A stretch of DNA of 64,000 nucleotides from Platanthera guangdongensis. Taxonomy: Eukaryota; Streptophyta; Magnoliopsida; Asparagales; Orchidaceae. The position numbers and the translations under genes were made by a program. Below the pieces are notes generated by a model, which worked only from the letters and a program-made list of their open reading frames with translations, had not been told where the DNA came from and did no database searches. Shown here piece after piece: positions 24,794 through 62,204 of this stretch. The first letter of the stretch is position 1, and each line of letters starts with the position of its first letter. Location of the stretch: the NCBI GenBank assembly GCA_039583875.1, contig CM077150.1, positions 46,169,261 to 46,233,260 on the forward strand, given 5' to 3'.

Positions 24794-27340
24794 TGTAACG
24801 CCCCAAAATTCGGAAGAAGGACGAGCAGCGTCGAGGGCCAAGTTTGGCTCTTGGTAAGGGTCACACGGCCTATGACACGGGTGTGTCCATATCCGTGTCC
24901 TACAGGGTCCGTCGAGAGCCCGGGAAGTCGAGGAATTTTAGCTCAGTTCGTCGACTAGTGGGGGACATGCCCTCCGACACGCCTGTGTCGGAGCCCGTAT
25001 CGCGGGCGTGTTCCCTTGAGTGTCGACACAAGGGAGGTATCAATATAGAGGTGTCGACACAGTTGTGTCGACACATGGGATGTGTCGACACAGATGTGTC
25101 GATAGAGAGGTGTCGACACAGTTTTGTCGACACAGGCATGGAATACGGCCTAGGACACGGGCGAGTCCAAGGCCGTGTCAAGCGTGTTCGAAGAATTTTC
25201 GCAAAGTCGACGAAGGTGCAGTCGACGATCGTCGAGACTTCGAACACGGCCTGAGACACGGGCGTGTCCCTGGACGTGTCCTTCTCGGGTTATAGCCAGG
25301 ACCTGTAAGGGGTTGGACACAGCCTGGATCCCATGCGTGTTCGGGTGGGACACGGCCGTGTCAAATGTGACACGGGCGTGTCATGAACCCGTGTCCTGGT
25401 TTGGGTGCGACGGTTTCGGCATCAATTGAGGAACACGGCTTTGGACACTGGCGTGTCACAAGTCGTGTTCGTCCCAGGTGTTTTGTTTTTTGTTCAGATC
25501 ATGGCCGTTCTTTCACTTGTTTTATGATTTGATGGTACAGGGTTGCCCTTGGTGAGTTAAGTCCGAGAATAGGGTTACAAACCCTCATTCTTCTCCAAGC
25601 AATCTCTTTCTAAGATCTAGAGAGAGGGGAGAGCAAGGAAGAAGGTGAAGGAGAGATCCGGCTGTTGGAGAGGCTTCGGTGCTCCAAATCGCGAGCCGAG
25701 TCCGGATCCGTGGAGGCAAGACCATTGCGAAGGTTTTCATCCGGCTGGGTTGCCATGGCGAGGAAGAGGGTTCAGAAGGTAACAACACTTCTCCTCTTGG
25801 TTTTAGGATGCATGTTTTAGCATCTTTTATTTTCTACTTTTTGGGCATCGAACTCTCAAATGAGAGGGGTTTGGGTCGCCAAGGTTCAAGAGGAACCTCC
25901 GGGTCGATTGAGTCCGTCCCCGGCATGTTGTTTCATTAGAGATCCGCTTCGTTAGTGGATTAGGCATGGTGGGTGAAGTCATAGTCGCGACCGTTAGTCC
26001 GACTCGGTGATGTTGCATACGAGCTTTAAGGATTCGTAGAGATTCGTTGCGGCAAGATTCCGTGTGTGATGTTTGTGATGTTTTCCCCCTTTTCTCGAGT
26101 GAGCACGTGTAGTCGGAACCAGACAATGTTAGCTCCTCAATGGCGGTAGATGGTTTCCTTGGTGAACAAGGTTAGCTCCGCATTGGTGGTAGATGATTTC
26201 CTTAGTGCGCGGGAACGCTGCAGTACGAATGAGGGACTAGGCTGGAATTGTCTTGGATTGTGATATGCCAAGGCGTGGCTGTGTCTCCGTGCTTGGCTGG
26301 CTATCCCGTGACGTGCACGTCATGTGTGGAGAGTGTCCCGGCGAGACTAGTCCCCTTCTATTAAACTGACGAGAATGCCAAGCATGGGGAAAGCCCGAGC
26401 AATGAGTCCATGAGCGGGTGGGGTCCAGCAAGGCTTCTTATAATCGGTCAGTGTGTTTAATGGAATCCTGACATGAGAAGTCATAGCTTGCAGGCAAGCC
26501 CGGATCTAAGACCTTGAGCGGGTGGGGCCTTGGCAAGAGTTCCATGTGGCGGCTTGTATGTCATTGGGGCAATGTTGGTAACCCCCTTTGTTTGCAGCTT
26601 TATGCCAATGGGGAAATTATGAGTACCCATATGATGTGATGATGTGCTAGATGCATACGCGATAGGGTGCCTTGGGTGAAGCCCGGTTTTTTTGCATATG
26701 TGCTGCATAAGTAGGCCCTTTCATTATATGCTCAATAATAGAGAACGTGTATGTTGTTCGAGACATCCAAGCCTGTTCTTAGTGCATTACTTGTTTATAT
26801 ATATATATTGTATACGAAGTGCTGACTTGCAGGTTAGAGGGGTTCCCCGGGGTTCGTTATGGGAGGCCGGGAGGAGATGTGTTTGTTACACAGTTTGAGG
26901 TCAGCATTTGCTGACCCATGCTACAATCAAATTTTTACAGTGCAAGGATTGCAAGCAGGAGATAGCTCGCCGGCCAAAAGGGCCGAAGCCTCATGAAGTG
27001 TTACTGTTTTGTTGTAGCTCTACTTTTATGACATTGTATGTTTGATGCTCATGTTTTCCAGCTTGCATGCTGAGGTAGTCTAGGAGTGCTTATGCACATT
27101 TATGACTGGTGTTGTTATTTGAGTTTTGGACTCACTTTTGTTGTAAGGCCTTAAGGCCGCTTCGATACTCCTATATGTTGTGGATAACTTCTAGTCTGTT
27201 TGCTTTTTCCGCTGTGCTGTGGTTATGAGTTTTGAGATCGGGTAGTTATATCATCTTATAATAATGATGTTATGGCGTCTGTATGTTGTGGGGCCCCGGC
27301 CGGACCCATATTATATGGTCATTACAGGGGAGGTGTTACA
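24794..27340 (+). repeat. G3 5' LTR (2547 bp)
   Basis: Starts TGTAACGCCCC and ends TGTTACA, followed by the primer site. It has U3 palindromic words at 24863-25460 including a TGTCGACACA block at 25019-25135, the palindrome GGCCTTAAGGCC at 27147 and a GGGGCCCCGGCCGG block at about 27289. A tandem duplication of a ggttagctcc...ggtagatg unit lies at 26128-26200. Open frames inside are repeat artefacts. Confidence 0.92.
25019..25135 (+). repeat. TGTCGACACA array in a gypsy LTR
   Basis: About seven copies of GTGTCGACAC or one-base variants at 10-20 bp spacing. It is the same word as in the SIRE-type copia LTRs at 40127, 47556, 58214 and 62607. The G3 3' LTR repeats the block at 32388-32486. Confidence 0.85.
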
Positions 27341-32160: not shown

Positions 32161-34418
32161 TGTAATGCCCCAAAATTCGGAAGAAGGACGAGCAGCGTCG
32201 AGGGCCAAGTTTGGCTCTTGGTAAGGGTCACACGGCCTAGGACACGGGCGTGTCCATGGCCGTGTCCTGCCGGGTTCGTCGAGAGCCCAGGAAGTTGACG
32301 AATTTTCGCTCAGTTTGTCGACTAGTGGGGGACACGCCCTCCGACACACCCATGTCGGAGCCCATGTCGCGAATGTGTTCCCTCGAGTGTCGACACAAGG
32401 GAGGTGTCGACACAAAGGTGTCGACACAGTTGTGTTGACACAGGGGAGGTGTCGATACAGAGGTGTCGACACAGTTGTGTCGACACAGGCAGGGAACCCG
32501 GCCTAGGACACGGGCGTGTGCCCGTGTCAAGCGTGTTCGACGATTTTTTGCGAAGTTGACAAAGAGGCAGTCGACGATCGTCGAGACTTCGAACACGGCC
32601 TGAGACACGGGTGTGTCCCTGGTCGTGGCCTTCTCGGGTTGTATCCAGGACGTGTAAGGGGTTGGACACGGCCTGGAGCCCAGGCATGTTCGGGTTGGAC
32701 ACGACCGTGTCAAATATGAAACGGGCGTGTCATGAACCCTTGTCCTGGTTTGGGTGCGATGGTTTCGGCGTCGATTGGGGAACACGGCCTTGTACACGGG
32801 CGTGTCACAAGCCGTGTTTGGCCCAGGTGTTTTGTTTTTTGTTCGGATCATGGACGTTCTTTCCATTCTTTTGGGATCTGATGGTCCAGGGTTGCCCTTG
32901 CTGAGTTAAGTCCAACAATATGGTTAGAAACCCTCATTCTTCTCCAAGCAATCTCTTTCTAAGATCTCGAGAGAGGGGAGAGCAAGGAAGAAGGTGAAGG
33001 AGAGATCCGGCTGTTGGAGAGGCTTCGGTGCTCCAAATCGCGAGCCGAGTCCGGATCCGTGGAGGCAAGACCGTTGCGAAGGTTTTCATCCGGCTAGGTT
33101 TCCATGGCGATGAAGAGGGGTTGGAAGGTAATGACACTTCTCCTCTTGGTTTTAGGATGCATGTTTCAACATCTTTTATTTTCTAGTTTTGGGCACCAAA
33201 CTCTCAAATGAGAGGGGTTTTGGGTCGCCAAGGTTCAAGAGGAACCTCCGTGTTGATTGAGTCCGTCCCTGGCATGTTTTTGCATTAGAGATCCGCTCCG
33301 TTAGTGGATTAGGCATGGTGGGTAAAGCCGTAGTCACGACCGTTAGTCCGACTCGGTGATGTTGCATACGAGTTTTAAGGATTCGTAGAGATCCTTTGTG
33401 GCAAGATATCATTTATGATGTTTGTGATGTTTTACCCCTTTTCTCGAGTGAGTACGTGTAGTCGGAACCGGACAAGGTTAGCTCCTCAATGGCGGTATAT
33501 GGTTTCCTTGGTGAATAAGGTTAGCTCCGCATTGGTGGTAGATGATTTTCTTGGTGCGCGGGAACGCTGCAGTACGAATGAGGGACTAGGGTGGAATTGT
33601 CTTGGATTGTGATGTGCCAAGGCATGGTTGTGTCTCTGTGGTTGGGTGGCTATCCTGTGACGTGCACGTCATGTGTGGAGAGTGTCCCGGCAAGACTACT
33701 CCCCTTCTATGAGACTGACGAGAATGCCAAGCCTGGGGCAAGCCCGAGCAATGAGGCCATGAGCGGGTGGGGTCCAGCAAGGCTTCTTAGAATCGGTTAG
33801 TATGTTTGATGGAATCCTGACATGAGAACTCAGAGCTTGCCGGCAAGCCCGGGTCTAAGACCTTGAGCGGGTGGGGCCTTGGCAAGAGTTCCGTGTGGCG
33901 GCTTGTATGTCATTGAGGGAATGTTGGTAACCCCCTTTGTTTGCGGCTTTATGCCAATGGGGAAATGATGAGTACTCATATGATGTGATGATGTGTTAGA
34001 TTCATACGTGATAGGGTGCCTTGGGTGAAGCCCGGGTTTTTGCATACAAGCTGCATAAGTAGGCCCTTTCATTATATGCTCAACAATAGAGAGCGTGTAT
34101 GTTGTTTGAGACATCCAAACATGTTCTTAGTGCATTACTTGTTTATATATATATTGTATACGAAGTGCTGACTTGCAGGTTGGAGGGGTTCCCCGGGGTC
34201 CGTTAGGGGCGGCCGGGAGGAGATGTGTTTGTTACACAGTTTGAGGTCAGCCTTTGCTGACCCACATTACTATCAAATTTTTATAGGGTAAGGATCGCAA
34301 GCAGGAGTTAGCTCGCCGGCCAAAAGGGCCTAAGCCTCATGAAGTGTTTGATGCTCATGTTTTCCGACTTGCATGCCAAGGTAGTCTAGGTGTGCTTATG
34401 CACATTTATGACTGGTGT
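32161..34418 (+). repeat. G3 3' LTR, truncated
   Basis: Collinear with 24794-27340. It lacks a short internal piece after gcctcatgaagtgtt (about 34345) and stops at gactggtgt, losing roughly the last 220 bp including GGCCTTAAGGCC and the TGTTACA end. The TGTCGACACA block lies at 32388-32486. Confidence 0.9.
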
Positions 34419-39958: not shown

Positions 39959-40126
39959 TTACACATCTTTAAACTCTCTGTTGGATATATTGGAAAATGT
40001 GTACCAGATTTGGAGAAGCCTCACCTTACTCAATGATATGCATCAAGGTGTATTTGATGTTGTTTTGAGTTTATATGTACAGGTTAAGAAAATACAGGAA
40101 TGCAGGAAAAAGTTTCTAAGTCCATG

Positions 40127-40592
40127 AGTCGACACCAGAAGAAGCTGTGTCGACTCTTATGAAGGCTTGTGTCGACACTAGATAAAAGCTATGTCGACAC
40201 TTGGAGTTAATTGTGTCGACACTTGGAAAGGCTGTGTCGACACCAGAAGAAACTGTGTCGACATACAGAGGCAGTGTCGACACACAGAGAAAGCTTAGTC
40301 GACATCAACTGTGTCGACACACAGAGGCAGTGTCGACACACAGAAGACTTTGTTGACATCAACTATGTCGACACACAGGACTTGTGTCGACACATGACAG
40401 AGTTTCAACAAATTCTATTTATGTGAAGAGTAGAAGTGACTGTGTCGACACCACAGAACTAGTGTCGACACATCCTACAGAAGTTGTGTCGAGAAGTAGT
40501 GTCAACACAAAAGTAGATGTGTCGACACCACCAAGGCTTGTGTCGACACTTAATCTACTTTTGTAGACACATGATGAAGTTTTGTCTTGACA
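40127..40592 (+). repeat. TGTCGACA array, SA 5' LTR
   Basis: By my count 17 GTCGAC cores, mostly as GTGTCGACAC, at 15-30 bp spacing, plus several one-base variants (gttgac, gtcaac, gtcgag). The core is a perfect palindrome and a SalI site. Confidence 0.92.
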
Positions 40593-40728
40593 CTTTGCTG
40601 ACAAAGACAGAGATTCAAGAAGTGACAGTATGACTTGACAGCTGCCAATACCAACCGGTCTACTGCAACTATCAGAGCTGTCAGAAGGTTGTTAAAAACC
40701 GGATCAGCCAGTTACCATGGAGGAAGTT

Positions 40729-40736
40729 TATATAAA
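40729..40736 (+). promoter_or_regulatory. TATA box, SA 5' LTR
   Basis: TATATAAA followed by GGC, about 137 bp after the TGTCGACA array and just after a conserved ggttaccatggagg-type segment. Equivalent sites: 48288, 58949 and 63210. Confidence 0.8.
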
Positions 40737-41113
40737 GGCATTCTCCATCAATAGAAAAAAAAGATACAGACTGACACTGAACACATGAAAAAGAAGAATT
40801 TGGAGAGAGAGAGAGAGCTCCATCTATTAAAGTGAAAAGGGACTTATATCAACAAGTCTCTTAAGTGCAAATTCTGAACTAGTCTGCCAAGAAGGATTCA
40901 GATTGAGATCTGAATTTCAAGAAAGAAGCTGATTGAAGATCAACTTCAAAGGAGTTCAACCCTACTGAGTTCAGATTCAATAAGCTTTGAAGAATTCTAA
41001 GAGTGGTTGTTCTCTGCCATTAGATTCTTCCAAGAACTGATCAAGAGACCTTCCATCCTTTCTCTCTCTACCAAGGTGGTGGTATATTACAAACTTAAAT
41101 CTATTTTATGTAG

Positions 41114-41366
41114 GATCTTTATAAGATCTGAGTTATAAGCCTGTTTTTATAAAGGCTGAGTTGTAGGAGATTATTTTATCTGAGTGGTAGGCCTTGTTGA
41201 AGGCTGAGGTAGGGATGTGAGCCAGAGTTGTAGGAGATTATTATCTCTGAGTTGTAGTCCTTGTTTAAGGCTGAGGTCGGGCAGATTGCCTGAGCTATGG
41301 GAGTGTGGACTCACTCTAAGTTGTAGGAGCCTTGTTTGGGTTCTGATCTGTAAGATCTGTGGATCT
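41114..41366 (+). repeat. Tandem mini-hairpin array, SA 5' LTR
   Basis: Eleven consecutive short inverted repeats of different sequence, separated by a near-constant linker ctgagttgtagg. Examples: GATCTT-TAT-AAGATC (41114-41128), AGCCT...AGGCT (41138-41157), GCCTT-GTTG-AAGGC (41191-41204), GAGAT-TATT-ATCTC (41234-41247), GGCA-GAT-TGCC, GAGTG...CACTC and AGATC-TGTG-GATCT (41353-41366). It lies downstream of the TATA box, so it should be transcribed. Confidence 0.85.
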
Positions 41367-41630
41367 GAGGTGAAGAGAAGAAGTTAGGCCGAATCTAGCA
41401 CACTGCTAGATAGGCGAAGGGGGAAAGTGGATGTACCCAGACCTTGGGGAACCACTATAAAACTATGTGCAATCTGTGATTGTGTATATTTCTGTGAATT
41501 CTGTGATTGTGGTAGCTGTAGAAGTGATAGATTAATTTGATTATCTGAATAAATATTTTGCCTTGATGTAAAAAGGAATTGCACCTATTCTCCCCCCACC
41601 TCTAGGTGTTTAGGAACCAATTCTTTCAAG

Positions 41631-41646
41631 TGGTATCAAAGCGAGG
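41631..41646 (+). other. SA primer binding site
   Basis: TGGTATCAAAGCGAGG, two bases after the LTR end. It is the Met-tRNA type site with one A in place of G. Confidence 0.88.
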
Positions 41647-46720: not shown

Positions 46721-46996
46721 GTGTCGACACAAAAAGTTGTCTGTATCGACACATAGTAGTTAATGTCTACACTCCAGGAAAGTGGTGTCGACACATCCAG
46801 AAAGTTAGTATCGACACTTCAGAGAAGTAGTGTCGACACATCCAGAAGTGGTGTCGACACTTAGAGTAAACACGTAGATTTCATCGAGCGTAGAATCGAT
46901 ATATATCGTCGAGCGCAGATTCGTCGACCTCAGATCATCGAACTCGACTAAGACAAATAGAATTGATGTCGAGACATTAGAAGTCTGTGTCGACAC
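46721..46996 (+). repeat. Internal TGTCGACA array upstream of ORF3 (SA)
   Basis: Several GTGTCGACAC words and variants, then cgtcgagcg / tcgtcgacctc words, directly behind pol and ending 48 bp before a TATA box. It is the same word as in the LTR but in a different place. Confidence 0.88.
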
Positions 46997-47152: not shown

Positions 47153-47409
47153 ATGGCGCCAAAGCTTGAAGATATTGTCAACGAAGGTTATGAGCTGGTA
47201 CGCAACGCCTTTGATAATGCGGAACCCGAAATTAAAGCAGTAGTAACCCTAATTGCAGAAAATGGTTTAGAATTTCTGGTGTCTGAACCTACAAAGATTT
47301 GGAAGAAAGAAATACTGGATTTCTATGGCGCAGCTACTTTAGATTCGACTGTACTTAAGATTAAATCTATAGTTCAGGGAGCTAAAGTTAAACTTACCTT
47401 GAAGAGCTT
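47153..47409 (+). pseudogene. SA ORF3, N-terminal part (cut by SB)
   Basis: Starts in a good plant context (ccccaATGGCG). Encodes MAPKLEDIVNEGYELV, then VVTLIAENGLEFLVSEP and IWKKEILDFYG. It is undamaged up to the SB insertion at 47409/47410, inside the target sequence agctt. The frame continues exactly at 59846. Function unknown; no signal peptide or membrane segment in this part. Confidence 0.85.
47405..47409 (+). repeat. Left target-site duplication of SB (agctt)
   Basis: agctt before TGTTGGG at 47410, repeated at 59841-59845 after the 3' LTR. Confidence 0.95.
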
Positions 47410-47555
47410 TGTTGGGTACATTGGAAAATGTGTACCAGATTTGAAGAAGCCTCACCTTACTCAATGATATGCATCAAGGTGTATTTGATGTGTTTTGAGT
47501 TTATATGTGCAGGTTAAGTAATTGCAGGAAATGCAGAAAAATTTCTAAGTCCATG

Positions 47556-48155
47556 TATCGACACCTAGAGAAGCAGTATCGACACTTATGAAGGCTTGTG
47601 TCGACACTAGAGAAAAGTTATGTCGACACTTGGAGTAGATAGTGTCGACACTTGGAAAGGCTGTGTCGACACCAGAAGAATCTATGTCGACATACAGAGG
47701 CAGTGTCGACACATAGAGTAGCAAAGTCGACATCAACTGTGTCGACACCAAAAGGCTGTGTCGACACACAGGATTACTTAGTCGACATTAAATGTGTCGA
47801 CACATAGAGGCAGTGTCGACACACAGAAGTATTTGTCCACATCAACTGTGTCGACACACAGGACTTGTGTCGACACACAGCAAAGCTTCAACAAAGTTAA
47901 AGTAAAGAAGTACTTGTGTCGACACAAAGGAGATGTGTCGACACACAGCAAAGTTTCAACTATGTTAAAGAAGAAGTATTTGTGTCGACACACGGAATCA
48001 GTGTCGACACACTCAACAGAAGGATGTGTCGAGAAGTATTAACAACAACAAAGGAGTTGTGTCGACACCACCAAGGCATGTGTCGACACGTAGTCCACTT
48101 GTTTCGACCCTTAGTCTATTTGTGTCGACACATAATGAAGATCGGTCTCGACACT
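47556..48155 (+). repeat. TGTCGACA array, SB 5' LTR
   Basis: About 20 GTGTCGACAC-type words with some one-base variants. Includes a longer internal duplication around aaagcttcaac / aaagtttcaac (47880-47960). Confidence 0.92.
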
Positions 48156-48287
48156 TTCAGACAGAGACAGTATTTCAAGAAGTGACTGGATGACTTCACA
48201 GCTGCTATTTTAACCGGTCTACTGCAACTGTCAAAGTTTTCAGTAGTTTGTTATAAACCGGATCAGCCGGTTACCATGGAGGAAGAC

Positions 48288-48295
48288 TATATAAA
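48288..48295 (+). promoter_or_regulatory. TATA box, SB 5' LTR
   Basis: TATATAAA followed by GGC, 16 bp after the perfect inverted repeat AACCGG...CCGGTT at 48256-48272. Confidence 0.82.
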
Positions 48296-48684
48296 GGCTT
48301 TCTCCTTCAACAGAAAGTGAGATCAATCACAACCAACATAAGAATTAACAACAACTAAGAGAGAAGTAATAATACAGAAGATTTTCAACAAAAGATCTAG
48401 AAGAAGTTGGAGAGAGAGAGAGCTCCATCTAAGAAGAGCAGTTGCTGAACCAGGCTGTCAAGAAAGATTCAGATTGAGATCTGAATCTCAAGTCAGAAGC
48501 TGATTGAGGATCATCTTCTCAGGAGATTCAACCCTACTGAGTTCAGATTCAAGAAGCTTTGAAGAAAGCTAAGAGAGGTTGATCTCAGCCATCAAGTTCT
48601 TCCAAGAACTTATCAAGAAGCCATCCATCCCTTCTCTTTCTATCTGGGTGGTGGTTAATTTCTTTGTAAACACAATTTTCTGTA

Positions 48685-48913
48685 GGATCTTTATAGATCT
48701 GAGATTTTAAGCCTATTATATAAAGGCTGAGTGTAGGAGAATAATTTCTCTGAGTGGTAGGGCTGTGAGCCTGAGGTGTAGGAGATTGTGATCTCTGAGT
48801 ATAGGCCTTGTTGAAGGCTGAGGTAGGGCATTTGGCCTGAGTTGTAGGAGTGTGGATACACTCTGAGTTGTAGGAACCTATTTGGGGTTCTGAGCTGTAA
48901 GATCTGAGGATCT
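48685..48913 (+). repeat. Tandem mini-hairpin array, SB 5' LTR
   Basis: Ten units: GATCT-TTAT-AGATC, AGCCT...AGGCT, GAGAA-TAAT-TTCTC, GGCT-GTG-AGCC, GAGAT-TGTG-ATCTC, GCCTT-GTTG-AAGGC, GGC-ATTTG-GCC, GAGTGT-GGAT-ACACTC, GAACC...GGTTC, AGATC-TGAG-GATCT. The linkers are variants of ctgagttgtagg. Several stems differ from SA on both arms together. Confidence 0.87.
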
Positions 48914-49176
48914 GAGGAGAAGTACAGAAGTTAGGCCGAATCTAGTACACTGTTAGATAGGCGAAGGGGGAAAGTGGATGTACCCAGACCTTGGGGAACC
49001 ACTATAAATACTGTGTGCACTCTGTGATTGATTGTTTCTGTGATTGTTGTGTTGTGTTAACAATAGAATTTGCAATTTATTGTTAGTTAACTGGACAGCT
49101 TTTCTGGCTTAAAAGAAAAACAAGAATTACACCTATTCACCCCCCCTCTAGGTGGTTAGGCACTAATTCTTTCAAG

Positions 49177-49192
49177 TGGTATCAAAGCGAGG
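49177..49192 (+). other. SB primer binding site
   Basis: TGGTATCAAAGCGAGG, two bases after the LTR end and identical to SA. Confidence 0.9.
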
Positions 49193-49255: not shown

Positions 49256-51286
49256 ATGGGTTCAGGTGAAAATCATAAGGAACTAGGTTCAATGAAACTA
49301 CCCATTTGCAGAAAGGAGATCTTTGGCATCTGGAAAGAAAGGGTCAAGCTGTTTATGGAGGCTTCTGATCCAAGGATCTATATTACAGTCAAAGATGGTC
49401 CTTATATCCCAATGAAGATTTCAATTCTGGATGCTAACCAAAGAATTCCCAAGGATTTCTCAAAGATGACTAAGGATGAGATCATCCTGGCAACTATAGA
49501 TAAGAGAGCCCAGAATATCATAGTTAGTGCCATAGATGATGCAACCTTTCAGAATTTGATTCACTGCAAGACCTCCAAAGAAATGTGGGATACTCTAATA
49601 GTCTACATGTAGGGTTCTGAAGAAGTAAGACAAGATAGAAAATCTATGCTAAATCAGGAGTATGAGAGTTTCAGACAAGAAAAGTCTGACAGTATAACTG
49701 AGTGCTACAAAAAGTTCTATAGAATAGTTAATGAGTTGATGTCCTATGGAAGAATCTTCAGTACCTATGAACTGAATGATAAATTCCTAAGATCCCTGAC
49801 AAAGGATTGGGACACTAAGATTTGTGCCATTAGAGAAGTGGCCAAACTTGTAGATATTTCTCCTCCAACCTTGTTTGGAAAGTTGCTGTCATATGGGATG
49901 CAACTGATGGCTAGGAAAGAGGAAGAGAAGAGTACAAAAGGGGAGCATAGAGAAAAGTCTGTGGCCTTTAAGATTGAATCCACTAGGAAAAATAGGAGGA
50001 TGTCTCCATCACCTCCTATGATAGTTGTTGAAATTCCTTCAGATAATTCTGATAGCCAATGTTCAGAAAGCAGTGACTCAGATGAAGATTTTGCTGCCTT
50101 CACAAGACAGTTTCAGAGATTTCTGAAGAAGAAGCAGCGGAAGTCTAAGCCTTCCACATCTAAGCCTAAAGATTACTATTATCAAAAGAGGAAGTCATCC
50201 AGGAAAGACAGGAGCAAGTCTAAGCCAAGCAAGTCTACAACATCAAAGAATGTTTGCTACTACTGTAATTGGCCTGTACATGTAGTAGCTGAATGTCCAG
50301 ATAAAAGAAAAGAGACTGCTGATAAAAAGAAGAGTCAACACCAGAGCAAGAAGGAGAATTCCTTTATAGTTAAGAAGGAGAAGACCTTGTCAGACCAATC
50401 ATCTTCAGAGTCAGAATCTGAAGCTGAGGCTTACATTGGTCTTTATGCAGCAGATGAAGAAGAAGAGTTTCTCTAGGTGCTGAACTCTATATATGAACAA
50501 GAAGACCATCAGTGCAAGGGACTGATGGCTGTTTCAGAAGAAGACAATTGTCAGGATCAGCCTGGTCCTAGTAAGGTACAATGTCTTTCAGATTACAGTA
50601 CTGAGTCAGAGTCAGCAACATCTGTATCAAATGATGTGGATGGGTCTGAGTATGAAGGTAATATTCATCAGTTGATAGATGAATATAGAGATTTATTGCA
50701 GGCACTTAAGAAGAGCAAAATCCTGGCCAAATCTCAGGCTAAGGAAATTGCAGACCTTAAGATGTCTGCATTAGATTCAGAGAAGTTGTTAGATCAAAAA
50801 CAGAATGAGATTGCCAGATTGAAAAACATAACTGTTATTCAAATGGGCACAATCACATTCAAGAATGATCAGATTAGTAAGCTGGAGGTTAGACTTCAGA
50901 AAGATAAAGAGATTGTGGTTAGCTTTTCTAAACCTAAATCTGTTTTACCTTTGATTGATGAGTTTGTACCTCAAAAGGGTAAGGCTGGATTACGGTTTAA
51001 GAAAACTGCCTGGACTGCTAGGTACAAATCTAAAGGCAAAGCCACAGTACCAAATAAGAAGCCTGCTGTAGATAATTCAGCTAGGGTTGTACCTAAACAA
51101 AGGCACAACAAGTTTGAGTGCTGGTGTTGTGGCAAGGTAGGCCACTTTGCCTTAGATTGTTGGCACAATTCCAGTGTCAAGGAGAGTAGCAATCTGCCTG
51201 CTAGAAGAGCTACAAGTAGATTTATTAAAGTTCAGACTAACTTGTACCAAGGACCCAAAAGTTATTTGGGTTCTAAGATTAAGTAA
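49256..51286 (+). pseudogene. gag: SB Gag (two premature stops, natural TAA end)
   Basis: A 677-codon frame. Gag core KEIFGIWKERVKLFMEASD, HCKTSKEMWDTLIVYM, YKKFYRIVNELM and KDWDTKICAIREV. First knuckle CYYCNWPVHVVAEC (50255-50296), with all four ligands but without the usual Gly-His pair. Long Ser/Glu acidic stretch, predicted-helical Lys/Glu region (IADLKMSALDSEKLLDQKQ). Second knuckle CWCCGKVGHFALDC (51119-51160). Premature stops at 49610 and 50474, both TAG. It ends GSKIK-TAA at 51284, and pol follows in the same frame. The large size and two knuckles fit SIRE/Maximus. Confidence 0.92.
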
Positions 51287-54200
51287 TCTGTGTTGCAAGT
51301 GAGTCCAAGTTGTCATGCCCCAATATGGTACTTGGACAGTGGATGTTCCTTGAACATGACTGGAACAAGGGGGTTACTGAAGGACTACACACCTATCATG
51401 CATGGGCCTAAAGTTACCTTTGGTGGTTCAGAAAAAGGAATCATCAAAGGCTTTGGTAACATTTCTAATAACCAGATTACTATCTCTCAAGTGGCCTATG
51501 TAAAGGGTTTGAAACACAACCTTATATGCATAAGTCAGTTGAGTGATTTAGGATATGACATTTCATTTATTAAGAATGGATGTCATATCAGAAGGTCAAG
51601 TGATCAAAAGGTCATATTGACAAGATATAGAAAGAGAAATGTTTATTGTCTTAACTTTGTGTGTGAGAACAATGTTTCTTCTATTTGTCTTGTAGCTGAT
51701 GAGAGAGCCTCTCATTGTGTTAAATGGCACAAGAGGCTGGCCCATCTTAACTATAAGACTATTGGCCAACTCTTTAGCAAAGAGTTATTGAGGAATGGTT
51801 CTCAAGTTAAGTGTATAAAGGATGGGATATGCCCAGCTTGTCAAAAAGGCAAGCAGACCAAATCCACCTTTCATAGCCTTGAAAACAAAGATTCAGTGAG
51901 ATGTCTTTACCTCTTGCATATGGATTTATTTGGTCCTATGCCAGTTCATAGTCTAGGTAGGAAGGTCTACACTTTTGTGGTAGTAGATGACTATTCTAGA
52001 TATTCCTGGGTGTTCTTTCTAAGACACAAATCTGAAACCTCAAGTGTCTTATATAGTTTTGTTAAACAAATTCAGAATGAGTTGGACAGTACAGTGGTCA
52101 AAATCAGAAGTGACCATGTCACTGAATTTCAGTCTGAAAGTATGACAAGACTATGTGAAGAATTTGGGATTTTTCAAGAATTTTCCTCACCTAAAACACC
52201 TCAGCAAAATGGTATTGCTGAAAGGAAGAATAGAACATTGATAGAGGCTGGTAGAACTCTATTGAGTGACACTTCTCTCCCAGAATATTTCTGGGTTGAG
52301 GTAGTAAACACTGCATGTCATGTGATCAATAGGGCTACTATCACGAAGTGCCACAAAAAGACTCCCTATGAGATTGTGAAGGGCAGAAAATCAAACTTAT
52401 CCTATTTTAGGATCTTTGGTTGCAAGTGTTATATACTTAACAATGGCAAGTCTTATCTAAGCAAGTTTGCTGCCAAATCCCAAGATGGGATATTTGTTGG
52501 GTACAGCAACAATAGTAAGGCTTATAAAGTCTACAACTTGATTACTCAAGTTGTAGAAGAGTCTGTTCATGTAGTCTTTGATGAAACAAGACTGATTAAC
52601 AGTGAGTTGTCAAGTAGTGCTTGCAGTTCTACAGGTTTAAATGAGAGAATGGACAAGCTTACCATTACAGAAGAATCAAATGCAACTCAGGAAGTGGAAA
52701 ATGGTGGCTGTTGTCCGGGGGGAGTACAAGACTCTCAAGATGCTGAAAAAAACCAAGAGGTGCAGCTTAATGAAGAGGCTGGAGGTGTTCAACCTTAAGA
52801 TAGACTACCTCCAGCTAATAGACACTTAAAGGATCATCCAGCAAATCAGATAATTGGTGATCCAAGACAAGGAGTGCAAATAAGAAGCAGGAATCTGAGC
52901 ACAATTCTTTGCTCCAGCTTCCTATCACAAGTGGAACCAAAGAAATTTGAAGAAGCGGTTCTAGACCCACATTGGATTGATGTCATGCAAGAGGAGCTGA
53001 ATCAGTTCAAAAGATGCAAGGTCTGGAAGCTTGTTCCTAAACCAAAAGACCACAATATCATTGGAACAAAGTGGATCTTTAGAAACAAATTGGATGAGAA
53101 TGGGATCATTGTGAAGAATAAAGCAAGACTTATTGCAAAAGGGTATAGGCAGGAAGAAGATATTGACTTTGATCAAACCTTTGCCCCAGTAGCAAGACTG
53201 GAAGCAATCAGGATGTTCCTTGCTTATGCAACATATCAAGGCTTTAAGGTATTTCAAATGGATGTAAAGTTAGCATTCCTGAATGGAAATCTAAAGGAAG
53301 AATTCTATGTAGAGCAGACCTAAGGTTTTGTTGATCCTCTCAAACCTGATTATGTTTATAGACTTAGGAAAGCATTTTATAGTTTGAAACAAGCCCCAAG
53401 GGCTTGGTATGAAATCCTGTCTAGTTTCCTCATTGAGAACAAATTCTCAAGGGGGAAAATAGACAAGACTTTATTCCTTAGGGAATCTAAAGGAAAGATT
53501 ATCCTAGTCCAAATATATGTTGATGACATAATATTTGGGTCTTCTGAAAGTAATCTTTGCAGAAAGTTTGCAAAACTTATGCAAGGAAAATTTGAAATGA
53601 GCAGTATGGGGGAACTTAAGTTCTTCTTGGGTCTCCAAGTAAGACACACTGAAGATGACTTGTCCATATCCCAGTCTAAGTTCTCCCTAGAGTTAATAAA
53701 GAAGTATGCTATGGAATCATCCTCTACCATGAGAACTCCAATGGGGTCAAGTGTGTCTCTTAGCAAAGATGATGTAGGGAAACCTGTAGATGAAACTTTG
53801 TATAGAGGGATAGTTGACTCCCTTCTATATCTGACTGCTAGTAGACCAGATATCATGTATGCTACATGTGGCTGTGCTAGGTACCAAGCATGCCCTAAAG
53901 AATCTCATCTGACTGCAATAAAAAGGATTTTGAGATATCTTAAGGACACACCTTATCTAGGCCTTTGGTACCCTAGGAATGGAGATTTTCTACTGACAGG
54001 CTATTCAGATGCAGATTTTGCAGGTTGCAAGGAAGATAGAAAAAGTACTACAGACACCTGTCATTTTTTAGGAGGAAGACTAGTGTCTTGGAGCAGTAAG
54101 AAGAACACCAGTGTAGCAATCTCCACAGCTGAGTCAGAATATATGGCAGCAGGAAGTTGTTGTGCACAACTATTGTGGTTTCAGCACCAGCTAGAAAACT

Positions 54201-54460
54201 ATGGTATTCAAGTAAGTAGAACACCTTTGTTATGTGATTCTACAAGTGTTATTTCTATTGCAAATAATCTTGTCTCACATAGTAGGACTAAGCACATAGA
54301 AATTAAATACCATTTTCTTAGAGAACATGTAGATAAAGAGGACATTTAACTAGAGTATGTTAAAACAGATTATCAAATTGCTGATATGTTTACTAAGCCT
54401 CTAGATGAAACTAAATTCAATAAGTTTAAAATTTAATTGGGTATGCTGAACTTAGAATAG
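51287..54460 (+). pseudogene. pol: SB Pol (PR-IN-RT-RH), few stops, no frameshift
   Basis: Same frame as gag, after the TAA. Protease WYLDSGCSLNMTG (DSG at 51335), ending LICISQLSDLGYDI. Pre-integrase WHKRLAHLNYKTI and CPACQKGKQTK. Integrase MDLFGPMPVHSLG, VVVDDYSRYSWVFF, IRSDHVTEFQSE and GIAERKNRTLIEAG. Linker with VVFDETRLINSEL, then [35 protein letters not shown] at 53516-53527. RNase [32 protein letters not shown] and RTKHIEIKYHFLREH. Stops at 52796 (TAA), 53321 (TAA), 54347 (TAA) and 54434 (TAA); natural end TAG 54458. Confidence 0.93.
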
Positions 54461-54485: not shown

Positions 54486-54817
54486 GGTGTCGACACAAGG
54501 AGTTGTCTCTGTCGACACATAGAAGTGGTGTCGACATTCCAGAGAAATGATGTCGACACATCTAGAAAGTCTGTGTCGACAATTCAGAGAAATTGTGTCG
54601 ACACATCCAGAGTAGGTGTCGACACATCCAGAAGTGGTGTCGACACTTAGGTTCAATACAGATTTCGTCGAGTAGAGTTTCGACTAATCGTCGAGCGTAG
54701 ATGTATAAGTGTCGACACATAAATTCTATCGACTATATTAGTGTCGACACATAGTAGTCAACACCGTTGTCGAGACTTAAGTAGTCAGTGTCGACACTTT
54801 TCAACAGTGTCGACACA
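54486..54817 (+). repeat. Internal TGTCGACA array upstream of ORF3 (SB)
   Basis: About ten GTGTCGACAC-type words directly behind pol, interrupted by cgtcgag words at 54666-54700, ending 46 bp before a TATA box. Same position as in SA. Confidence 0.88.
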
Positions 54818-54970: not shown

Positions 54971-57814
54971 ATGGCGCCTAAGCTTGAAGAGAATGTCAAT
55001 GAAGGATATGAGCTAGTATGCAACGCATTTGACCATGCGGAACTAGAAATTAAGGAGGTTGTAACCCTAATTGCAGAGAATGGGTTGGAAGTTCTAGTTT
55101 CAGAACCAACCAAGATTTGGAAGAAGGAGGTACTAGAATTCTTTGGTGTAGCTATTCTAGATTAAACAGGACTCAAGATTAAATCTATAGTCCATGGAGT
55201 AAAAGTAAAACTCACCCAGAAGAGTTTAAGAAAAGTTCTTGACCTGCCTAGAACACAAGAGGAAGAAGATGTACCTGCATCAAGGCTAAGGGAAGCACTT
55301 CAATGGTGTGGACTGAATTCCACCATGAAGATTGGCTCAGTATTTAACAGGAAAGGAATGAATCAGCAAGGCAAATTCCTTTCAGAAATAGTTGGCAAGG
55401 TGATTTTGTGCAAGCCAGGTGGGCATGATAGGATATCAGCTCATATGTTCAGCTTAATGACAAGGATCATCTTTAAATTAAAAACTGATTGGTTAGCAGT
55501 TATTTCTGAGAAGATTACAGAAAGCATTAAGAAGCCCAATCTGGGTAGGATAATGAGTCTTTACTTAGCTGGAACTATTACAGAAGTGATGGAACAAAGT
55601 GCTGGTTCCAAGATTAATCATATGAGAAAAATGGACATCAGGATTATCTCCAAGTAGGAAAGGGTGTTAACTAAGGACATGCCTACTCCTGATAAAGAAA
55701 CACCTCCATAGAGGAAGCAGAAGAAAGCCAAAAGGGCTCCTGAACCTTCCAGTAGTTCAGAAAAACAAGCAGCTTCCAATGCAAATGAGGAATAGGCTGA
55801 TAATGCTGGAAGGTCACCAGTACGAAAAGAAGATGCACAGAGGTTGGGGGAGCAACCATCTGCTAACCCCATCCACCTGGATCCACTCCAGGGGGAGCCT
55901 CACCATGAGGAAGTGCCTACTCACTTGGATAGTGAAATGGCAACACAAACAATTCTTGAGGTAATCAGTGAAGTCAATCAATCAATTATCAATATTGAGA
56001 ATGAAATGCTAACTGAATCTTTGATTGATATTGATCAGACAACTCAGTTACACAGTCAACCACAAGATGTAATCTTGGAGGATACCTCAGCAGTTACTGA
56101 TGCTCCATAAATAAGAAACTCTCTTGTCCCTTCTCAACAAGAATTTACCTTAGAAGAGATGTTTCCTGATATTGAGGGGGAGTATGCTGGTTTTGAGGGG
56201 GAGAAAATTGTCTTTGAGGGAGAGCAAGCTAACCTTGAGGGGGAGCATGTGAGGTCTCATGAGGAGACTACAAGGAATAATGAGGAGTAAACCAGAACTG
56301 ATACTGAGGAGCAAAGGACTCAGGGGGAGCTACTTAAGACTGCACAAGAATTGCCACCTAGTCCAAAGGATAGAGTAGATATAGCCAGTACCTCTGATTC
56401 TGAGGATGCAGCTGAGATTCAAGCTAAGAAGAGGAAGCTCATGGTCTTCAAAAGAAGGAGTCAAAGGTACAAGAAGGCACTGCAAACAGTTGCTCCACAG
56501 CCTGCCCCAACAATTGATTACAGTTCATTGTTAATATCTTTACAAGTGAAGCTGGATGAGAAAAGGATAGCAATGGAGAAGTATATGGATGAGACTCACA
56601 AAGATCTCCAATTATCCTTGGCCCAAGACATCAAGTCAATAAGATTTGAAATGAATCAAAATAAGAAGGAAATGACTGATTGTTTCCACAAAGGAGGTAA
56701 TGCAGTGGTTTACCTAGCAACACACCAAGAGAAAATTAAGATACAAGTGGATGATATAGCTGTGAAGCAGGGCTATGTCTTAGAAAATCAGATTAGGATG
56801 AATGATAATCTGACTGCATCTCATAATACAATTGTTACAGAATTGAAAAATGTTGCAACAGCCCAGCCTGCTGATAAGTCTACAGCCAAGCCAGAGTTTG
56901 ATAAGGAGAAGTTTGATAAGGAATTCCAGGAAGGCATAACTGCTGTCAAAACAGCTATTGAGCTCTCTCAAAAGACTCTTTCTGGACTGCTGCTCAAGTT
57001 AAAGGGATTCTATAAAGATGGTGTAAATTTTCTGGATGAATAAATAAGATTTCAGAAGGATGATCTTAGAGATCATGTGGCTAGAGAAGTCATAAAGGGG
57101 GAGAGAGTACTAGTCAAAGTTGGATCTGATCATGCTAAATGGATTTCCAATACCATCAGAGCCACACTTGGATATCCACCCCTATGTGATGATGACAATG
57201 TGGCAGAATCTGGTATAAATCCTGCTATTTTTGGAGGTGAGCAAGCTGAAGTTGCTCAAGTAATCTATCCTCCAGCAGATTTTGAGATGATACATCATGA
57301 AGTACAATCTATGTACAGTCCTCCTGAAGGTAATAAAAATCTTATCATTGAGAAAGTAGACAGGCCTGTGTTAGAGGCAATTTTGAAAAAGCAAGAAGCT
57401 TTATTGTCAAAGAAGAGATTCAGAGAACATGCTGAGTTAAAGCCAGATTTTGAGCAGTGGACTCCTACTTCTAGAAATATTATACTAACTGCTTGAAAAG
57501 CTGCAAAGTAAAATATCCTAGAGAGGGGCAAATGGTACTCTGAACTAGAATGGAGAAAACATGAAGCCAGGCAAGAAGCTATTGTACAATATAGAAGGAA
57601 GACAAAACTTGGGAAGCTACCTCCTAATGCACAGGAGCCTAGCAAATATTTCCCAAAGCCTTATCATTATTTTGAAAGACAAAAGATAAGGGCTGAAAAG
57701 CTGAAGAAGAAAGATCTTAAGGGCAAGAATCCAGTTGATGACACTGATGTTCCAGTTCAAGCCAAGATTCAATCAGGCAAGGGCATTATCATCAAGGAGC
57801 CAGAGCAGCCTTAG
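54971..57814 (+). pseudogene. SB ORF3 (unknown product, 'env-position' ORF), about nine stops
   Basis: One frame of about 948 codons from ATGGCGCC to TAG 57812. N-terminal third: MAPKLEENVNEGYELV, IWKKEVLEFFGV, QWCGLNSTMKIG, GKFLSEIVGKVILC and MSLYLAGTITEVME. This pattern recalls the plant-transposon-associated domain found in many plant retroelement ORFs (weak recognition). Middle: acidic, with repeated EGE words, then basic KKRKLMVFKRRSQ (possible nuclear signal) and a long helical part with coiled-coil character (LQVKLDEKRIAMEKYM). C-terminal: HAKWISNTIRATLGYPPL, KLPPNAQEPSKYF and a Lys-rich tail. No signal peptide or hydrophobic membrane helix, so an envelope role is not supported. Stops at 55163, 55655, 55709, 55793, 56108, 56288, 57041, 57494 and 57509. 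Confidence 0.8.
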
Positions 57815-58059: not shown

Positions 58060-58070
58060 TAGGGGGAGAT
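58060..58070 (+). other. SB polypurine tract
   Basis: TAGGGGGAGAT directly before the 3' LTR start TGTTGGG. Confidence 0.85.
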
Positions 58071-59840
58071 TGTTGGGTACATTGGAAAATGTGTACCAGA
58101 TTTGAAGAAGCCTCGTCTTACTCAATGATATGCATCAAGGTGTATTTGATGTGTTTTGAGTTTATATGTGCAGGTTAAGTAATTGCAGGACATGCAGAAA
58201 AATTTCTAAGTCCATGTGTCTACACCTAGAGAAGCAGTATCGACACTTATGAAGGCTTGTGTTGACACTGGAGAAAAGCTATGTCGACACTTGGAGTAGA
58301 TAGTGTCGACACTTGGAAAGGCTGTGTCGACACCAGAAGAATCTGTGTCGACATACAAAGGCAGTGTCGACACACAGAGTAGCAAAGTCGACATCAACTG
58401 TGTCGACACTAAAAGACAGTGTCGGCACACAAGATTACTTAGTCGAAATCAAATGTGTCGACACATAGAGGCATTGTCGACACACAGAAGTATTTGTCAA
58501 CATCAACTGTGTCGACACACAGGACTTGTGTCGACACACGGCAAAGCTTCAACAGAGTTAAAGTAAAGAAGTACTTGTGTCGACACAAAGGAGATGTGTC
58601 GACACACAGCAAAGTTTCAACTATGTTAAAGAAGAAGTATTTGTGCCGACACACAGAATCAGTGTCGACACACTCAACAGAAGGCTGTGTCGAAAAGTAT
58701 TAACAACAACAAAGGAGTTGTGTCGACACCACCAAGGCATGTGTCGACACTTAGTCCACTTGTGTCGACACTTAGTCTATTTGTGTTGACACATAATGAA
58801 GATCAGTCTCGACACTTTCAGACAGAGACAGTATTTCAAGAAGTGATTGGATGACTTGACAGCTGCCATTTCAACCGGTCTACTGCAACTGTCAAAGCTG
58901 TCAGTAGTTTGTTAGAAACCGGATCAGCCGGTTACCATAGAGGAAGACTATATAAAGGCTTTCTCCTTCAACAGAAAGTGAGATCAATCACAACCAACAG
59001 AAGAATTAACAACAACTAAGAGAGAAGTAATAATACAGAAGATTTTTGACATAAGATCTAGAAGAAGTTGGAGAGAGAGAGAGAGTTCCATCTAAGATGA
59101 GCAGTTGCTGAACCAGGATGCCAAGAAAGATTCAGATTGAGATCTGAATCTCAAGTCAGAAGCTGATTGAAGATCGTCTTCTCAGGAGATTTAACCCTAC
59201 TGAGTTCAGATTCAAGAAGCTTTGAAGAAAGCTAAGAGAGTTTGATCTCAGCCATCAAGTTCTTCCAAGAACTTATCAAGAAGCCATCCATCCCTTCTCT
59301 CTCTATCTGGGTGGTGGTTAATTTCTTTGTAAACACAATTTTCTGTATGATCTTTATAGATCTGAGATTGTAAGCCTATTATATAAAGGTTGAGTCTAGG
59401 AGAATAATTTCTCTGGTGGTAGGGCTGTCAGCCTGAGGTATAGGACATTGTGATCTCTGAGTATAGGCCTTGTTGAAGGCTGAGGTAGGGCATTTGGCCT
59501 GAGTTGTAGGAGTGTGGATACACTCTGAGTTGTAGGAACCTATTTGGGGTTCTGAGCTGTAAGATCTGAGGATCTGAGGAGAAGTGCAGAAGTTAGGCCG
59601 AATCTAGTACACTGCTAGATAGGCGAAGGGGGAAAGTGGATGTACCCAGACCTTGGGGAACCACTATAAATACTGTGTGCACTCTGTGATTGATTGTTTC
59701 TGTGATTGCTGTGCTGTGTTAGTAATAGAATTTGCAATTTATTGTTAGTTAACTGGACAGCTTTTCTGCCTTAAAAGAAAAACAGGAATTACACCTATTG
59801 ACCCCCCCCCCCTCTAGGTGGTTAGGCACTAATTCTTTCA
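58071..59840 (+). repeat. SB 3' LTR (1770 bp)
   Basis: Partner of 47410-49174. TGTCGACA array 58214-58815, TATA box 58949-58956, hairpin array 59349-59575. Ends ATTCTTTCA, followed by the duplicated agctt. Confidence 0.95.
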
Positions 59841-62204
59841 AGCTTAAAGAAAACTCTTCAACTCCCAAGAACACAAGAAGAAGAAGAAGTACCTTCTACT
59901 AAGACTAGGGAAGCAGTTCAGTGGTGTGGATTGGATTCCACCATGAAGATTGGGTCAGCAATGAATAGAAAAGGGATGAATCTACAAGGCAAATTCCTTT
60001 CAGAAGTGGTTGGAAAAGTCATTCTCTGCAAGCTAGGTGGACATGATAGGGTTTCTGCCTATATGTTCAGCCTAATGACCAGGATTATCTACAGACTGAA
60101 CATAGATTGATCTGCCGTAATCTTTGAAAAGATTAAGGAAAGTATTAAGAAGCCAAATCTGGGAAGAATTATGAGTCTGTACTTGGCTAGAACAATTCCT
60201 GAAGTAATGGAACAAACTACTGGTTCTAAGATCAACCATATGAGAAGAATGGACATAAGGATAATCTCCATATGGGATAGAGTCCTAACAAAGGACATGC
60301 CTGATGAAGAGAGGCCAGAGATTCCTGAAAAATTTCCTGCACAAGAAATTGCAGATGATGCTCAGGTGCAGGGGGAGCCCCATCTAGAGGAACAGCCAAC
60401 ACACTTGGAAAGTGAAATGGCTACACAAACTATACTTGAGGTAATCCATGAAGTCAATCAATCAATTTTCACTAATGAGGATGAATAACTAACTGTGTCT
60501 TTAGTTGATGTTGACCAGACCACTCAACTCAACACTCAAGCACAGGATGTTATCATGAAGGATACATCTACAGCTGCTGATGCTCCTGAGTTGGTGGTGC
60601 CTCAAGTACCAACTCAACAAGAGTTTACTCTAGAAGAGTTGTTCCCTGATTTAGATCAAGTAAGAACTGAGGGGGAGCAAGCTAACATTGACGGGGAGTA
60701 TGTCAGGACTGAGGGGGAGGAGCAAGGGACTCAGGGGGAGCAACCTAGGACTGCACAGGAACTGCCTCCTAGTCCTAAGGAAAGAGTTGATATTGCCAGT
60801 ACCTCAGCTTCAGAAGATGAAGCAAAAGTACAAGCCAAAAAGAGAAAGCTGATGGTTTTCAAAAGGAGAAGCCAAAACTATAAAAGGGCTTTACAAACTG
60901 CTTCTCAACCTACCCCAACAACTGATTATAGTTCCTTGTTGATCTCATTGCAAGTAAAGTTAGATGAACAAAGGATTGTCATGGAGAAATATATGGATGA
61001 GGCCCACAAAGATCTGCAATTCTCCTTAGCTCAAGATATTAAATCAATAAGATTTGAGCTAAATCAGAACAAAAAGGAAATGACAGATTGCTTCCACAAA
61101 GGTGGCAATGTTGTAGTCTATCTTGCCAAACAACAAGTAGGCATAAAGACTCAAGTTGACGATATAGCTGTTAAGCAAGGTTATGTGCTTGAAAATCAAA
61201 TGAGGATGAATGATAATCTGACAGAATCACATACTGTGATTGTTACAGATTTAAAGAATATTGCTACTGCCCAGACTGAAGCAAGTGCTAAAGCCAAGTC
61301 AGATTTTGATAAACACTTCCAGGAAGAACTAGCTGTTGTACAATCAACTATTAAAAATTCTCAAAAGATTATTTCTGATCAGTTACTGAAAATAAAGTCA
61401 TTTTATAAGGATGGTGTTAATTATCTAGATGAACAAGTGAGATTTCAGAAAGATGACCTTAGAGATCACATTGAAAGAGAAGTCATAAAGGGGGAAAGAG
61501 TATTAGTCAAAGCAGGCTCAGATCATGCTAAATGGATATCTAATAGCATCAGAGCCACACTTGGATATCCACCCCTCTGTGATGATGATAATGTAGCTGA
61601 GTCAGGTATACAACCTGCTTATTTTGTAGGTGATCAACCTGAAGTTGCTTAGGTCATTTACCCTCCAGCAGACTTTGATATGATTCACCAAGAAGTACAG
61701 TCACTGTACAGCCCTCCAGAGGGTAATAAAAATGTTATCATTGAGAAAGTTGAAATGTCAGAGGCAACTCTGAATAAGGAGCAAGAAGCTCAACTGTCAA
61801 AGAAGAGATTCAGAGAATAGGCTGAGTTGAAGCCTGATTTTGAGCAGTGGAGTCCTACTTCAAGGAATATTATATTGACTCCCTGGAAGGCTGTAAAATA
61901 TAAGACCCATGACAAGGGAAAATGGTACACAGAGCAAGAATGGCAAAAGTATGAAGCTAGATAGGAAGCTATTCTACAATACAGAAGAAAGGCAAAAGCT
62001 GGGAAGCTACCTCCTAATGCTCAGGAGCCTAGCAAGTATTTCAGAAAGCCTTTTCACTATTTTGAAAGGCAAAGAATAAGGGATGAAGAACAAAAGAAGA
62101 AAGATCTAAAGGGCAAGAAGCTAGATGAAGATACTGATGCTGCAGTACAAGCCAAGATCCAATCAGGCAAAGGCATAGTCATCAAGGACCCTGAGCAGCC
62201 TTAG
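59841..62204 (+). pseudogene. SA ORF3, C-terminal part
   Basis: Begins with the duplicated agctt and continues the frame broken at 47409 (LKKTLQLPRTQ, AVQWCGLDSTMKIG). Same layout as SB ORF3: MSLYLARTIPEVME, acidic EGE repeats (60660-60750), KKRKLMVFKRRSQ, long helical region LQVKLDEQRIVMEKYM and HAKWISNSIRATLGYPPL, ending at TAG 62202. Stops at 60108, 60486, 61650, 61818 and 61962, fewer than in SB; several fit G-to-A or C-to-T changes (for example TGG to TGA at 60108). The continuous frame 60495-61652 makes this the best-preserved stretch of ORF3 in the window. Confidence 0.83.

Follow-up and report, generated by a model that had tools for sequence, protein, structure and literature searches.

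The last third of the window (the whole stretch of 64,000 nucleotides of Platanthera guangdongensis DNA analysed here) holds two nested copia elements, SB being inserted within SA, and each of their four LTRs carries a tandem array of small hairpins in which the stems are kept by pairing, the linkers by sequence, and the loops are nearly free. These tandem inverted repeats were almost certainly maintained as such while the elements were active, with selection acting on the fold of the array. The selected form appears to be the sense RNA, within a 5' leader running from the transcription start to the primer-binding site.

Two nested Sirevirus-like elements

The LTRs, TATA boxes, hairpins and primer-binding sites described below lie on the plus strand. 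The SA 5' LTR (39981-41630, start approximate) and 3' LTR (62470-64000, cut by the window end) are 92.9% alike over the part that they share, and the two SB LTRs (47409-49176 and 58070-59842, limits approximate) are 95.8% alike. The motif TGGTATCAAAGC, which we take to be the tRNA primer-binding site, occupies 41631-41642 in SA and 49177-49188 in SB. Pfam domains of SB (Retrotran_gag_2, gag_pre-integrs, rve and RVT_2) follow the copia order, with integrase before reverse transcriptase, and in-frame stops break the gag-pol frame of this element (49613-54349) into a series of five pieces. An env-like piece of SA had four protein matches over part of the query, all from Platanthera orchids and with 58-74% identity.

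A conserved TATA box near the LTR middle is among the Sirevirus features given in the part of PMC2829016 cited here, and both SA and SB possess it, the boxes being located by eye at 40729-40736 and 48288-48295 of their 5' LTRs. The same part describes palindromic repeat motifs (RM) upstream of the Sirevirus TATA box as promoter elements, with a CGG-CCG core in all RM-bearing Sireviruses except Tnd-1. Palindromic repeats of GTGTCGACAC, devoid of the CGG-CCG core, occur upstream of the TATA boxes in the window (40128-40394, 47554-48131, 58215-58792 and 62643-62875). Repeats of this type recur 3' of the reverse-transcriptase region (46746-46861 and 54510-54646), a placement also described for some Sireviruses, and outside SA and SB (25020-25135 and 32387-32489), where they are adjoined by a 43-base tandem repeat (26123-26207 and 33474-33556); together, these outlying repeats may mark the two LTRs of a further element. 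Sireviruses have several identical polypurine tracts beside their 3' LTR; in the window, G-rich tandem repeats were found at 56172-56247 and 60657-60752, some 2 kb before the 3' LTRs begin.

Anatomy of the hairpin array

The arrays are located at 41110-41370 (SA 5' LTR, 11 units), 48680-48915 (SB 5' LTR, 10 units), 59342-59577 (SB 3' LTR) and 63588-63848 (SA 3' LTR), in every case between the TATA box and the primer-binding site. An earlier note on this DNA had reported the array in all four LTR copies, and it is indeed present in each, with 10-11 units and at nearly the same coordinates. In each unit the linker is followed by the 5' arm, the loop and the 3' arm, with TGAG at the end. The linker is TGAG followed by 0-3 bases and, in most units, GTAG; the arms are mostly 3-6 bp, the loops have 2-10 bases, and SA units 3-5 and 6-8 are related by a 67-base duplication. 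Among 110 linkers that a linker rule located after TGAG in 13 arrays, the commonest were TGTAG (39), TTGTAG (17) and GTAG (14).

Hairpins with at least 5 Watson-Crick base pairs number 6, 8, 6 and 5 in the four arrays, some of them not being units (for example 41133-41152 and 63787-63799), against means of 0.7-1.3 and maxima of 3-5 in 500 dinucleotide shuffles of each array. Palindromes are also seen in the leader upstream of the arrays (41009-41040 and 48593-48616), such as AAGTTCTTCCAAGAACTT in SB.

About 55-75 bases past the array sits a second conserved hairpin, GTGGATGTACCC..GGGGAACCAC, at 41427-41455 (SA 5' LTR), 48974-49002 (SB 5' LTR), 59636-59664 (SB 3' LTR) and 63905-63933 (SA 3' LTR). 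This pattern has 143,941 matches in the host genome and 14 when mirrored. Its loop varies in both length and sequence.

Rfam returned no match at gathering score on either strand of 39000-64000, and searches of viral and genome contigs, from which records near the window's genome may have been omitted, found no relatives. Nor did searches of open-licence papers turn up a description of such an array past the TATA box; within the papers searched, the earlier statement that no description was known holds.

UGUA-type far-upstream polyadenylation elements occur in plants, and TGTA is contained in 76 of the 110 linkers. The linkers could accordingly be read as such elements acting in 3'-end formation from the 3' LTR, and SA does have an AATAAA downstream of the array, at 41548. 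We regard this reading as quite unlikely: 34 linkers are without TGTA while GTAG is commoner (90 of 110), SB has no AATAAA at the matching place, and covariation of the stems would not be predicted. In addition, one study, in the part cited here, places the Sire polyadenylation signal near the TATA box (PMC3601003), a position that would put the array beyond the signal.

Covariation of stems within arrays and across the genome

When arms were set by the linkers alone, 49 of 55 cells paired in the 11 units of SA, compared with 26.4 (sd 4.0; maximum 45 in 100,000 swaps) when arms were exchanged between units. In the 10 units of SB, 45 of 50 cells paired, compared with 23.7 (sd 3.8; maximum 43 in 100,000 swaps). 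Linker-only patterns, which require no pairing inside the run, extend this observation to the 4.25-Gb assembly of the host genome. The pattern CTGAGTTGTAGG-N(8-18)-CTGAG had 78,397 matches against 154 for its mirror image, and TGAGCTGTAGG-N(9-18)-TGAG had 28,831 against 72. Covariation was counted among the matches listed (100 per pattern, giving 76 and 63 distinct strings), which all come from the start of contig C1 and thus form a sample by place, non-random and including related copies; only distinct arm pairs were counted. Pooling the two samples left 76 distinct arm pairs, and of their 304 cells 211 were Watson-Crick, against 90.7 (sd 8.0) with arms swapped and a maximum of 121 in 20,000 swaps. 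Taken apart, the first sample had 147 Watson-Crick cells of 212 (swapped arms 65.4, sd 6.6) and the second had 122 of 156 (swapped arms 49.4, sd 6.1). Positions 2, 3 and 5 show all four Watson-Crick types, and position 4 shows all but G-C. As a register control, the 3' arm was slid by 1-3 bases in the 76 distinct units (304 cells) of the first sample, and pairing fell from 0.78 in register to 0.10-0.34. At one locus, six exact unit matches are spread over C1:6457217-6457752, suggesting that some arrays may be twice as long.

Among the 93 pooled cells that were not Watson-Crick, G-U accounted for 35 (expected share 0.23, p 0.002) and A-C for 13 (expected share 0.14, p 1), although the G-U excess fell short of significance when the second sample was taken by itself (p 0.1). 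Enrichment of G-U and not of A-C favours sense RNA as the form under selection. It also tells against downstream enhancers or protein-binding dyads of the promoter, that is, sites acting at the DNA level. Such sites would agree with the promoter role described for the palindromic repeats of Sirevirus LTRs (PMC2829016, in the part cited), which the array resembles in being made of repeated palindromes within an LTR that also bears GTGTCGACAC repeats. Yet the RM described there are one common sequence repeated upstream of the TATA box, whereas the array lies downstream, with stems that differ from unit to unit and loops of varying length. A DNA-level role is therefore very improbable, even though both strands of the array fold equally well.

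Changes before and after insertion

The earlier note had inferred selection from orthologous stems of SA and SB that change on both arms together. Alignment of the two elements contradicts this particular claim, since only one-sided changes and no double change were found: unit 9 differs within its 3' arm, at an inner base, unit 10 by one base that makes G-U versus A-U, and unit 3 at an inner base of the 5' arm and at one loop base. The example of GAGAT/ATCTC versus GAGAA/TTCTC compared unit 6 with unit 3. Stems that differ on both arms are found, however, when units of one array, or different LTR families, are compared.

The 5'/3' LTR pairs allowed changes made before insertion (SA versus SB) to be split from those made after it, over 263 array columns (58 loop, 103 linker and 102 stem, gapped columns being uncounted). 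The 18 pre-insertion substitutions fell 14 in loops, 3 in linkers and 1 in a stem (G-U versus A-U), and the 29 post-insertion ones 3 in loops, 16 in linkers and 10 in stems. With these hand-made labels, Fisher tests of pre against post gave p 0.0003 for stem versus loop, p 4e-6 for stem plus linker versus loop, and p 0.03 for stem versus the rest; the labels score pairs formed in a single family as loop, which biases towards contrast. Automatic stems, which remove that choice, gave p 0.001-0.017 for stem versus loop when taken from one family. Against all other columns, the contrast was p 0.017-0.033 with stems defined in SA and was not significant with stems defined in SB (p 0.31-0.32). Hairpins elsewhere in the leader, outside the array, had no stem/loop contrast (Fisher p 0.29-1). 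Taken as a whole, the array is under tighter constraint than the leader that precedes it (18 pre and 29 post, versus 86 pre and 31 post; p 3e-5).

Private changes among 29 SA-type copies (27 among the genome matches listed, plus the two of the window) numbered 42 in 104 stem columns, 14 in 54 loop columns and 26 in 103 linker columns. Stems thus gain such changes as often as the other columns do, and so do not behave as mutational cold spots. Compared with pre-insertion counts for stem and loop, these private changes differ at p 2e-6, or 0.002 with automatic SB stems.

Template switching in quasi-palindromes yields paired changes in one step, and could by itself remake complementary arms as a mutational by-product devoid of function; the tandem duplication of units, with its 67-base period, would suit such an origin. 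It is nevertheless improbable as the explanation, for the stems of SA and SB are nearly unchanged though their loops changed, stems decay freely after insertion, linkers are kept, and mismatches are enriched in G-U. Selection on the fold, as proposed in the earlier note, is thus supported by covariation among units and families, by the register control and by the stem/loop contrast before and after insertion. Its further proposal, that sequence was not selected, is right only by half: over long spans the stems do change in pairs, but the linkers are kept as well (three pre-insertion changes in 103 columns).

Arrays in other LTR families

Twenty random 10-kb stretches contained three more array-bearing LTRs (L039, L047 and, in part, L040), as well as one (L034) with the downstream hairpin and without this array. 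A further 20 leaders were picked for differing loops of the downstream hairpin among 100 matches listed, and were assigned by eye to classes. A TGAG-type array was recognised in 10 of them (L074, L075, L077, L078, L080, L085, L088, L090, L092 and L093), an array built alike but with different linkers in three (L084; L079 and L091), and another layout in six (L076, L081, L082, L083, L087 and L089), whereas L086 was unlike an LTR. The linkers are of the CCGAG-TTTGTAGG type in L084 and of the GTGTTGTAAGG type in L079 and L091. In the host genome, 7,008 sites match the L084-type linker pattern and 1 matches its mirror image. Repeats around GGTTTTTGAGCACCTTATCAAAAGCTC were seen in several of the six leaders of other layout, which possibly carry another structured array.

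Matching units by their order, the first unit has GATCC/GGATC in 6 of 10 families, GATTC/GAATC in L078, and GATCT/AGATC in SA, SB and L092. Similarly, the unit GAGAT/ATCTC appears as GAGTT/AACTC in L039. For L047 together with 20 of its 40 relatives listed, all old copies, 184 of 332 cells were Watson-Crick against 106.4 (sd 8.6), and the same rule applied to 17 other random loci gave 104 of 436 cells. L039 belongs to a young family, in which 18 of 40 matches listed for L039:8740-9060, query included, are identical over 321 bases.

Energy folding of the leader

Free folding of the arrays gave z-scores relative to shuffles of -1.8 to -2.3 on the plus strand and -2.3 to -4.2 on the minus strand; with spans of at most 28 bases these became -2.6 to -4.1 and -3.3 to -5.4. 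When G-U pairs were permitted, the hairpin content of the arrays was 1.2-2.6 sd above shuffles. Over the whole leader, with spans unlimited, 5 of the 8 SA units and 4 of the 10 SB units reached a mean pair probability of at least 0.4; limiting spans to 150 bases brought this to 6 of 8 and 8 of 10. Free folding shifts many units into other pairs, the probability being 0.02 for SA unit 6 and 0.00 for SB units 1 and 11. In free folding, the plus strand is only mildly better than shuffles and weaker than the earlier note implied, the minus strand being as strong or stronger. Energy folding was set aside as main evidence, given the modest z-scores, a minus strand of equal strength and the strong folding of the upstream GTGTCGACAC repeats.

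Single array hairpins are weak (-2.4 to -6.1 kcal/mol), a property that would suit translation control, in which ribosomes scan, pause or shunt to gag along an AUG-poor leader with many weak hairpins. ATG is indeed rare in 14 arrays, with 12 occurrences against 59.4 (sd 4.8) after shuffling, while CAT occurs 9 times against 7.5; in hairpin bodies alone, ATG occurs 7 times against 15.3 expected and CAT 6 times against 8.1. However, much of the ATG deficit is forced by the repeated linker and is kept here as weak evidence only. The downstream hairpin, moreover, contains an ATG, and conservation of the linker sequence is not predicted, making translation control unlikely as the role of the array.

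Possible role of the array and known systems

The order TATA box, array, primer-binding site, gag places the array, by inference, in the 5' leader; a very short R has been reported for Sire by one study (PMC3601003, in the part cited). Our tentative preference, by analogy with known systems, is that the array may be a multivalent element for Gag binding, dimerisation or packaging in Sirevirus-like elements. Its hairpins would space the G-rich linkers (UGAG..GUAG) regularly and keep them unpaired, as docking sites for the RNA-binding domains of Gag. The array would thereby offer a multivalent platform to the element's own Gag, by which genomic RNA would be selected and perhaps dimerised. The self-complementary stems would also allow the array to pair with another RNA molecule while the linkers stay open. 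Linkers are near-uniform in each element and differ between some families, which would fit a reader encoded by the element better than a host factor. Two CCHC-like motifs are visible by eye in the SB gag translation; a Pfam search of the SB gag pieces, with E up to 0.001, did not report a zinc knuckle. It would count against a Gag role that a signal internal to the LTR would also occur in RNAs reading through an LTR.

This preference arises from an array built like that of alfalfa mosaic virus and from repeated motifs that recall those of the MLV leader. In the 3'UTR of alfalfa mosaic virus, coat protein binds to stem-loops that stand in a row and are flanked by AUGC motifs (PMC9414508, in the part cited). 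Both arrays are rows of hairpins with a short, constant and unpaired motif between them, a likeness that for the orchid array is drawn from sequence and covariation. The viral array, in contrast, has fewer hairpins and lies at the 3' end of a plant RNA virus, whereas the orchid array precedes the primer-binding site and gag; coat-protein binding was demonstrated for the former, and Gag binding is a proposal for the latter. The MLV packaging leader combines a repeated unpaired UCUG, bound by nucleocapsid, with palindromic stem-loops for dimerisation (PMC2951377, in the part cited), and thus resembles the array in its repeated unpaired motif, its palindromic stem-loops and the putative 5' leader position. 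MLV, however, belongs to another virus family, and the cited part of that paper describes no tandem interchangeable mini-hairpins. Closer to SA and SB, conserved dimerisation and packaging signals are stated for the plant copia element BARE, for which, unlike SA and SB, no hairpin array is described in the part of PMC3735527 cited here.

A role in attracting or evading host silencing through small RNAs is most improbable. With 3-6 bp, the stems would make very short substrates for Dicer, and kept linkers would not be predicted. Such a role would nonetheless recall the palindromes of maize Sirevirus LTRs, which attract small RNAs (PMC10760457, in the part cited).

Carried further, the proposed Gag platform could represent a packaging or dimerisation RNA of an undescribed class, in which interchangeable hairpins space a family-specific linker "address" read by the element's own Gag, an extension that we hold to be doubtful. 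Should it be true, linker type and Gag would co-evolve, and the RNAs of rival families would be kept apart. How plant LTR retrotransposons choose RNA for packaging is, to our knowledge, poorly known. With its strong covariation, its kept linkers and the very many natural variants present in one genome, of which some belong to a family that includes identical copies, the array provides a concrete packaging candidate. These arrays also constitute a natural data set in which the constraints on stem, loop and linker can be separated, and a marker for the annotation of such LTRs.
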